Virus record (IMG/VR): IMGVR_UViG_3300042362_000221
Location: 1 to 35,369 of that record
Origin: a virus
Length of the DNA stretch: 35,369 nt
Direction: 5' to 3' (one strand)
Shown: piece by piece, positions 5,735 through 7,855 of the stretch
Layout: every line of letters starts with the position of its first letter
How positions within the stretch are numbered: the first letter of the stretch is position 1
Translations under genes and position numbers: made by a program
The notes under the pieces: model-generated
Seen by the model: only the letters and a program-made list of their open reading frames with translations
Database searches by the model: none
Told to the model about the DNA's origin: nothing

Positions 5735-5830
5735 ATGGTTTTCATTTCGCTGGGGTTTATATCGTCGGGCGTAGGACATCTGCGTATCTACCCCCCCCCC
5801 CCCCCCCGCAAATCAATAATTAGGGAATGA
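5735..5830 (+). CDS. Possible leader peptide coupled to integrase, containing a C17 tract
   Basis: A 31-codon frame from ATG 5735 (GAGGTGAAGC just upstream offers a ribosome site) reads MVFISLGFISSGVGHLRIY, then five prolines from the C-tract, and ends with a TGA overlapping the integrase ATG (ATGA at 5827-5830). The frame reaches that overlap only if the C-run is 17 (or differs by multiples of 3). It may be fortuitous; the support is the ribosome site and the ATGA coupling seen throughout this genome. Confidence 0.35.
   Translation: MVFISLGFISSGVGHLRIYPPPPPRKSIIRE
5791..5807 (+). repeat. Homopolymer tract C17
   Basis: Seventeen consecutive C residues, 20 bases before the integrase start. 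Such tracts mutate by slippage during replication and are also hard to sequence exactly. It is the longest homopolymer in the window. Confidence 0.85.
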
Positions 5831-6906
5831 AAACCGATACGGTCAAAGTGGGATCATTTTCAGCCCACCTTTGGCTGTCCTCTGACGGACGCTGGAAATG
5901 GCACACCCGGCGCTCTGGTCGGCGCGCCCTTTGCACCGCCGTTTCGCTCGATAAGGCTAGGGCTAAGGCCAAGGCGCAACTTAAAGCCTTGCGCGACGGC
6001 AAAACCGAGCTGGACAGCCTCAAGCCCGCCGTGCTGGCCGACTTTTTGCGCTGGCGCGACCAGCAAATAGCCAGCCCTAGGCTGGCCGATGCCGTCGAGG
6101 ACTACCTAGCCTTCCTGCACAAGCGCGGCGTCCGCGAGACGCGCATCATCGACGTGGACTTGACCAACTTTGCCAAGGCTCACCGCAAGCCGATTGTCGC
6201 CATCACGCCGGCCATGCTGACCGACTACCTTGACGGCCTTGCAGTCGGAGCTAGGCGCTGGAACAACGTCAGGGCGTCTATTGCGGGGCTGTTTCGCTGG
6301 GCTCGGACAATGGGCAAGTTGCCAGACACAATCACCGCTCCCGAAAAAGTTCATGCTCGGCGCGTTGAGGACAAGCCAGTTGGCATCTACACGCCCGAGC
6401 AATTTATGGCCCTGCTTGCTTGCACCGATGAGGACTTCCGGCTGGCCGTAGCCATCGGCGGGCTGGCAGGGCTGCGTAGCGAGGAGATTCATCAACTGCG
6501 CTGGGAAGACTTGAAGCTAGACCGCAACTTGATCGAGGTCCGCGCCGCCACGGTCAAAACGGGCAAGCGCCGTCTCGTCCCGATCCTACCCGCGTTGGCC
6601 GCGTGGATCGCCGTCAGCAAGCCGCAGGAGGGCAAAATGGTTGCGCCCAGGCTTTCTTTCTCGGTCCTGCAAAAGCGGCTGAAGCGGCATCACGGCATTA
6701 AGTGGACGCACAATGGCCTGCGGCATTCCTACGGCACATATCGGTGCGCCGTCCTCAAAGACATTGCCGCCGTGTCCTACGAAATGGGCAACTCGCCCAG
6801 CATGGTCAAAAAGCACTACCTTGAAATGCAGGACGAAGCCGCCGGAAAGGCGTGGTTCGATGTCATGCCTGGCATACGCACGTTTGAAAAAGCTACCACA
6901 AAGTAA
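5827..6906 (+). CDS. int: Tyrosine-family site-specific integrase
   Basis: A 359-residue recombinase that would insert the phage at its attachment site. Residues 1-60 form a basic arm-binding-like part, 85-165 the SAM-like core-binding domain (ADAVEDYLAFLHKRG), and 185-345 the catalytic domain. Visible residues: Arg217 in GLRSEEIHQLRW, Lys in TVKTGKRR, Arg299 in HNGLRHSYGT and the nucleophile Tyr331 in VKKHYLEM. The usual HxLR box reads NGLR and the usual GH of box III reads GN (MGNSPSM); both His positions are thus substituted, though a His lies on each side of the NGLR box. The attP-like site lies about 90 bases downstream. Confidence 0.93.
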   Translation: MKTDTVKVGSFSAHLWLSSDGRWKWHTRRSGRRALCTAVSLDKARAKAKAQLKALRDGKTELDSLKPAVLADFLRWRDQQIASPRLADAVEDYLAFLHKRGVRETRIIDVDLTNFAKAHRKPIVAITPAMLTDYLDGLAVGARRWNNVRASIAGLFRWARTMGKLPDTITAPEKVHARRVEDKPVGIYTPEQFMALLACTDEDFRLAVAIGGLAGLRSEEIHQLRWEDLKLDRNLIEVRAATVKTGKRRLVPILPALAAWIAVSKPQEGKMVAPRLSFSVLQKRLKRHHGIKWTHNGLRHSYGTYRCAVLKDIAAVSYEMGNSPSMVKKHYLEMQDEAAGKAWFDVMPGIRTFEKATTK

Positions 6907-7052
6907 CCAGTTTTGGACACTCGCCCACCGGTCAGTTTTATCAGATTCTTGCTTCAACCAATTCCAGCCATGCTCAGTTTGACTCATGGCCGAATTTTCA
7001 AATCCCACCAGCCCGACTCTGTTAAATCAGAGAAAAGCCACAAAAGTAACCA
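6896..7052 (+). other. attP: attP candidate: tRNA 3'-end core flanked by arm repeats
   Basis: At 6997-7018 the sequence TTCAAAT-CCCAC-CAGCCCG-A reads as the T-loop, 3' side of the T-stem, 3' side of the acceptor stem and discriminator base of a tRNA. Integrases of this family often use tRNA 3' ends as the core. The repeat CCACAAA(A)GTAACCA occurs at 6896-6909 (overlapping the integrase stop) and 7038-7052, flanking the core like arm-type binding sites. The acceptor arm would pair with a 5' CGGGCTG, most like tRNA-Pro. No full tRNA is encoded here. Confidence 0.7.
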
Positions 7053-7114
7053 AGAAGTCACCACTCCAAATCGCGGAGTATGACAGGAGGTTTTGACACC
7101 CCGTTCGCTCTTGC

Positions 7115-7855
7115 GTGGCAAGCAAGACCAAAGGCTGGACCCGGTATCTATGTTGTAGCTGCACGCATGGGTCCGAAGCCGACCCAAAAGCCCTCGACGC
7201 TATCCTCCGCTTGCGGGATGCATGGAAACCGCAGTTTGTCGCCCACCTCGGGGACGCCATAGACGCCCGCGCCCTGCGCGCTGGCGCACGGAAGGATACC
7301 GACAGCGCCGACCATGCCGCCGATCTGGCTGATGACCTCATGCAAGGGCTGGCTTTCCTCAAGCAACTAAAGCCAAACGTCTACCTTCTCGGAAACCATG
7401 AGGCGAGACTGAGCGAGTTGGTGCACTCGCCCAACGCGGTGCTCTCCTACGCCGCCGGCCACGTCATGGGCCGCATCGAGGACGAGATGGCGAAGCTCAA
7501 GTGCCGCATCATCCCTTATGCCGGCGTCCACAAGTCAGGGATGTTCATGCTTGGCGACACCGGCCTCACGCACGGTTCTGTTTACAACGTGTCTGCCGCC
7601 CGCGACATGGCCGAGATGTGCGGCCACTCCGTCATCTTCGGACATACTCACCGCGTGGCAATGGAAAGCGCCAGGACGCACGCCAAAGCCATCGGATATA
7701 ACATCGGGTGCGGCATCAAGCTGGACATCGGCTATTCGGCCCAGCGCCGGCAAAGCCTTGGATGGCGGCACGCGGCGGCATACGGGCATTTCAACGGCTC
7801 TCACTGCACGGTGAACATCGCGGTCTTTGATCCGCATTACCAGTTGCCGCTATGA
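7115..7855 (+). CDS. Calcineurin-like metallophosphoesterase
   Basis: A 246-residue protein from GTG 7115 with the ordered metal-binding motifs of the family: CTHG near residue 16 (where DxH is usual), HLGDAIDA near 43, LLGNHEARL near 93, THGSVYN near 152 and VIFGHTHR near 173. These bind two metal ions and hydrolyse phosphomono- or diesters; the substrate is unknown. The first motif Asp is replaced by Cys, so metal binding may differ. An in-frame TGA at 7094 excludes earlier starts; AGGAGG at 7085-7090 is too distant for the normal spacing. It lies right after attP, a usual place for accessory (lysogenic conversion) genes, and is ATGA-coupled to the next gene. Confidence 0.85.
   Translation: MASKTKGWTRYLCCSCTHGSEADPKALDAILRLRDAWKPQFVAHLGDAIDARALRAGARKDTDSADHAADLADDLMQGLAFLKQLKPNVYLLGNHEARLSELVHSPNAVLSYAAGHVMGRIEDEMAKLKCRIIPYAGVHKSGMFMLGDTGLTHGSVYNVSAARDMAEMCGHSVIFGHTHRVAMESARTHAKAIGYNIGCGIKLDIGYSAQRRQSLGWRHAAAYGHFNGSHCTVNIAVFDPHYQLPL

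Follow-up and report, generated by a model that had tools for sequence, protein, structure and literature searches.

When a tyrosine integrase targets a tRNA gene, crossover takes place at the anticodon loop, the T-loop or the T/acceptor junction, and the gene that is entered gets its 3' end back from the element (PMC4383910; PMC8371274). Overlap regions of 7 bp located at tRNA loops are a known pattern among them (PMC8371274). Mycobacteriophages of Cluster K1 carry a 24-bp tmRNA core with paired arm sites (PMC3203893), and the tRNA islands of the Islander collection assigned to class T-loop/J have a crossover subsite in the T-loop/T-stem and a restored 3' end supplied by the element (PMC4383910).

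This article describes a locus of the same kind in a metagenomic virus. The region 6896-7063 of the window (the whole 35,369-base virus record that was analysed) very probably serves as the attP with which a temperate phage of Verrucomicrobiota integrates into tRNA-Pro(CGG) and restores the 3' end of this gene. It would fit the T-loop crossover class. As in CrimD and the other Cluster K1 phages, a core of about 20-24 bp that starts at the T-arm is flanked by arm-type sites, the integrase gene (int) is adjacent, and the arm sites are presumably read by the integrase N-terminal domain (PMC3203893). The window differs from these phages in its target, tRNA-Pro(CGG) of Verrucomicrobiota, in having the attP 3' of int, and in the arm sites, which are direct repeats, the first one overlapping the int stop codon. 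From the Islander islands it differs in that no integrated copy of it is known. Among the nearest integrases in an annotated phage collection are those of the Akkermansia phages Moulinsart, Chantilly and Chambord, which are distant (29-31% identity). The attP is a sound and ordinary arrangement of a known type, in a little-known phage group. Its features and their surroundings are as follows.

Positions 5791-5807, plus strand: poly-C tract of 17 C, variable in length among relatives.
Positions 5827-6906, plus strand: int, tyrosine integrase of 359 aa (PHROG phrog_1, 5e-28; Pfam PF00589, 2e-7), apparently hybrid by domain identities and trees.
Positions 6896-6909, plus strand: int-proximal arm-type site, CCACAAAGTAACCA, which overlaps the stop codon of int; same position relative to this codon in relative L029.
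Positions 6997-7016, plus strand: attP core, TTCAAATCCCACCAGCCCGA, exactly matching host tRNA-Pro(CGG) genes and the phage locus L015/L029.
Positions 6997-7003, plus strand: T-loop TTCAAAT (7 nt), where strands are probably exchanged (overlap region).
Positions 7017-7025, plus strand: CTCTGTTAA, phage-side sequence adjoining the core, common to the window, L029 and the tRNA-Leu phage L034.
Positions 7038-7052, plus strand: first arm-type site beyond the core, CCACAAAAGTAACCA; same spacing in L029.
Positions 7055-7063, plus strand: second, degenerate arm-type site beyond the core, AAGTCACCA, 11 bp from the first; the 11-bp tandem spacing is also found in L029 and many tRNA-Leu relatives.
Positions 7115-7855, plus strand: metallophosphoesterase-like gene on the far flank of the attP (PHROG phrog_221, 8e-16; Pfam PF00149, 3e-6).

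The core is identical in 20 of 20 nt to the T-loop, T-stem, acceptor and discriminator base of tRNA-Pro(CGG), so that it copies the last stretch of an actual host tRNA gene and ends where the tRNA ends. The preliminary description, made from the letters of the window, had read an attP here, with a tRNA match of 22 bases lying 90 bases after the integrase and CCACAAA-type repeats on both sides. The attP reading is upheld by the existence of the tRNA and by a relative that has kept core, arm sites and integrase together as a module; the spacing is confirmed, as int ends at 6906 and the core begins at 6997. The tRNA 3' end was correctly recognised, its length was not: identity covers 20 nt, and the CT at 7017-7018 is already phage sequence. 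No complete tRNA was detected in the window by ARAGORN or Rfam, as expected for an attP. The overlap is placed at TTCAAAT because the identity between phage and tRNA begins there and extends only toward the tRNA 3' end, and because 7-bp loop overlaps are an established pattern (PMC8371274). The possibility that CTCTGTTAA represents host flank was rejected, since 384 genomes are without it, no host genome was found to have it after the tRNA, and L034 carries it beside its own core. Phage-type genes flank the region on both sides, which makes it an intact attP and no prophage end.

The repeats reported earlier are indeed present on both sides of the core, and their spacing is kept in L029; the second far-side (P') site, 7055-7063, had been missed. 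Counted from the int stop, GTAACC stands at -4 and +139 in the window and L029 alike, and the second P' site lies at +150, as GTCACC in the window and GTAACC in L029. The arm sites of L029 (the same record as L015) are at -15, -4, +139 and +150, versus -4, +139 and +150 in the window. The motif AAAGTAACC has no further occurrence on either strand of the window. On its own, the 10-mer repeat says little (when the 200-bp stretch was Markov-shuffled 20,000 times, 912 shuffles contained a repeat of at least 10), and it is the perfect identity of the 20-mer with an actual tRNA gene, together with the same geometry in a relative whose integrase is 62% identical, that places the arrangement beyond chance.

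Phages sometimes carry tRNA fragments, and the core could in principle be such a fragment, present by chance or by capture, as a recombination scar with no part in integration would be. This is highly improbable given that the site sits between arm sites and beside int, that the same slot is filled in relatives by a tRNA-Leu or tRNA-Ser-like tail, and that identity stops precisely at the discriminator base.

The host side of the attP reading comes from bacterial genomes. Of 388 Verrucomicrobiota genomes drawn across the phylum, 3 contain the exact 20-mer, two of the three belonging to the same family; in that one family it is present in 48 of 81 genomes. The two genomes searched from another phylum gave no match. 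At each of the 35 host loci that were read, ARAGORN called a tRNA-Pro(CGG) gene; the genes displayed start with CGGGCTGTGGCTCAGC and end with GTGGGTTCAAATCCCACCAGCCCGA. The preliminary description had predicted a host tRNA beginning CGGGCTG and proposed to look for bacterial tRNAs with matching last bases as a way to name the host. Verrucomicrobiota tRNA-Pro(CGG) genes were found which start in this manner and end with the exact 20-mer, and the route to the host proved useful (48/81 genomes of one family versus 3/388 across the phylum draw). From these matches tRNA-Pro(CGG) can be proposed with high confidence as the target gene, and the tail marks a likely host group, mainly one family, within Verrucomicrobiota.

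In the mechanism proposed here, the integrase N-terminal domain would bind the AAAGTAACC arm sites while the core-binding and catalytic domains would recognise the T-arm of tRNA-Pro(CGG). Strand exchange would take place in or next to the T-loop, joining the 5' part of the host tRNA to the phage copy of the 3' end and so restoring the gene, and the displaced host 3' end would become the far border of the prophage. In such a prophage, the metallophosphoesterase-like gene would adjoin the restored tRNA-Pro. Integration itself is what we infer, since no integrated copy was found: a prophage bounded by the core was encountered neither in the Verrucomicrobiota genomes searched nor in one genome-contig scan, and the phage flank and arm sites were absent from all 40 host tRNA-Pro tail copies inspected. 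Looking for int in the first 10 kb after tRNA-Pro is uninformative, because with this att orientation int would lie at the opposite prophage end. Sampling may have missed the true host. Distant relatives of the integrase do occur in Verrucomicrobiota genomes, just downstream of tmRNA or tRNA-Ser genes.

Six host loci (L086-L091, in genomes G746, G744, G711, G738, G726 and G754) contain a second copy of the tRNA-Pro(CGG) 3' end about 310 bp after the gene (389 in L087), in which the anticodon arm is replaced by the palindrome GGTCGCCGCGGCGAC; the core of L091 has one mismatch. Between the gene and the second tail lies an ORF of about 80 aa with a Pfam GIY-YIG match in five of these loci and a different sequence in L090, and in L104 a GIY-YIG ORF stands beside tRNA-Pro without an exact second tail. 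The arrangement in L086-L091 looks like a tiny nuclease element carrying a tRNA tail. The second tails, some 310-390 bp from tRNA-Pro, were considered as attL/attR pairs and rejected, as what lies between each pair is a GIY-YIG-like ORF, or what is left of one, and no phage.

The lack of a prophage would also suit a phage that no longer integrates, the tRNA-like stretch being a relic left after the integrase was silenced or its specificity moved on. The active site of the integrase bears on this point. The Arg, Lys, Arg and Tyr catalytic positions are present, and both pentad histidines are replaced by asparagine (N296 and N322), so that the canonical R-K-H-R-H/W-Y set is altered at the His of HxxR and at the later His/Trp; for this reason the enzyme is classed with a variant, non-canonical subfamily of tyrosine integrases. 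These substitutions could be taken for decay, and the poly-C tract upstream of int could keep the gene off in part of the population. Against this, Asn is found at position 296 in 33 of 34 and at 322 in all 34 integrases of the subfamily (the window and 33 relatives), which are diverse and apparently intact, so that these residues are a trait of the family and no sign of decay; in addition, the int frame is open and core and arms are exactly conserved with L029. A relic is accordingly judged very improbable, and a functional attP is the preferred reading.

The relatives place this attP in a wider series. Scanning IMG/VR with the 20-mer gave three loci: L015 (IMGVR_UViG_3300009155_005446), with an integrase 62% identical to that of the window and the same core on the same strand, and L016 and L017, phage contigs in which different integrases adjoin the same tRNA-Pro tail. 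Beyond these, 32 further integrase relatives were gathered. A tRNA-Leu 3' end follows int, on the opposite strand, in 29 of them (L002-L014, L030-L034, L036-L038 and L040-L047); in L035 the core is tRNA-Ser-like and on the same strand as int, and the distant L048 was assigned to no core type. In the 29 and in L035, arm-type repeats surround the tRNA 3' end. Identity to tRNA-Leu reaches into the anticodon loop, as far as the anticodon (CAA), in L011-L013 and their kin and begins at the T-loop in the others. The tRNA-Leu type shares with the window a homologous integrase, the GGTTACTTT/AAAGTAACC arm motif, the 11-bp tandem spacing, an att site after int and, in several cases, a phosphoesterase gene adjoining it (the order int-attP-phosphoesterase recurs in several relatives), but differs in its tRNA-Leu core and in the strand of this core relative to int. 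Seen from the tRNA, the arm repeats that flank the core point the same way in both forms, so that between Leu and Pro the entire att region is flipped with respect to int. A single host shared by both types was discarded, since the exact tRNA-Leu core tail occurs in none of the 81 genomes of the tRNA-Pro host family.

Two of the Leu relatives deserve mention on their own. Downstream of int, L034 carries arm sites GGTTCGATTT in place of GGTTACTTT, with an integrase about 50-60% identical to that of the window, and appears from its sequence to be a natural arm-specificity variant. In L039 (1-534), int is preceded by a tRNA-Leu core with an arm site, then by a small basic ORF and the poly-C tract; the contig begins at the core, and the blocks homologous to the window are reversed, as in a putative rearranged or integrated form.

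The integrase itself appears to be a hybrid, with an N-terminal domain nearest to tRNA-Leu phages and a catalytic domain nearest to the tRNA-Pro phage. Residues 1-65 are 72% identical to those of the Leu phage L002 and 51% to those of L029, whereas residues 271-345 are 53% identical to L002 and 80% to L029. The window and L029 are sisters in the catalytic-half tree (support 1.0), so that Pro specificity tracks the catalytic domain; they are not sisters in the N-terminal-half tree, where the exact place of the window has modest support. In the simplest reading of these comparisons, the half that determines specificity would have been swapped together with the core while the arm-binding half was kept.

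The poly-C tract is a recurrent companion of these integrases. Runs of C or G of at least 8 number 30 in 300 kb of 33 integrase loci, and 25 of them, 8-19 long, lie on the int strand no more than 60 nt upstream of int. Leaving out the distant L048, the tract is present in 25 of the 29 loci having sequence upstream of int, including loci with unrelated surrounding upstream sequence. The contigs of 12 relatives start between 89 nt upstream of int and int codon 29, as expected if the tract is polymorphic or hard to assemble. No consensus sigma-70 promoters were found near int, and a conserved region upstream of the tract was rejected as a small leader ORF because the frame is not kept in relatives. 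Among the titles listed by literature searches, none directly matched poly-C with integrases or Verrucomicrobia phage integration. Variation in tract length suggests a possible length-variable or phase-variable control of the integrase. A more speculative and rather doubtful extension is an integration cassette of exchangeable parts, in which arm-binding domain and arms are kept, catalytic domain and tRNA core are swapped with the att inverted relative to int, and use is perhaps switched stochastically by the hypervariable tract, giving phase-variable lysogeny.

Through this analysis an anonymous virus from a metagenome is linked with a definite target gene and with a family of Verrucomicrobiota. 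Together with its relatives, the window forms a natural series in which integrase specificity shifts among tRNA-Pro, tRNA-Leu and tRNA-Ser-like targets while the arm-site system is still recognisable, a series useful for learning how integrases change target. If the poly-C tract upstream of int controls expression, it would provide a testable on/off switch for lysogeny.
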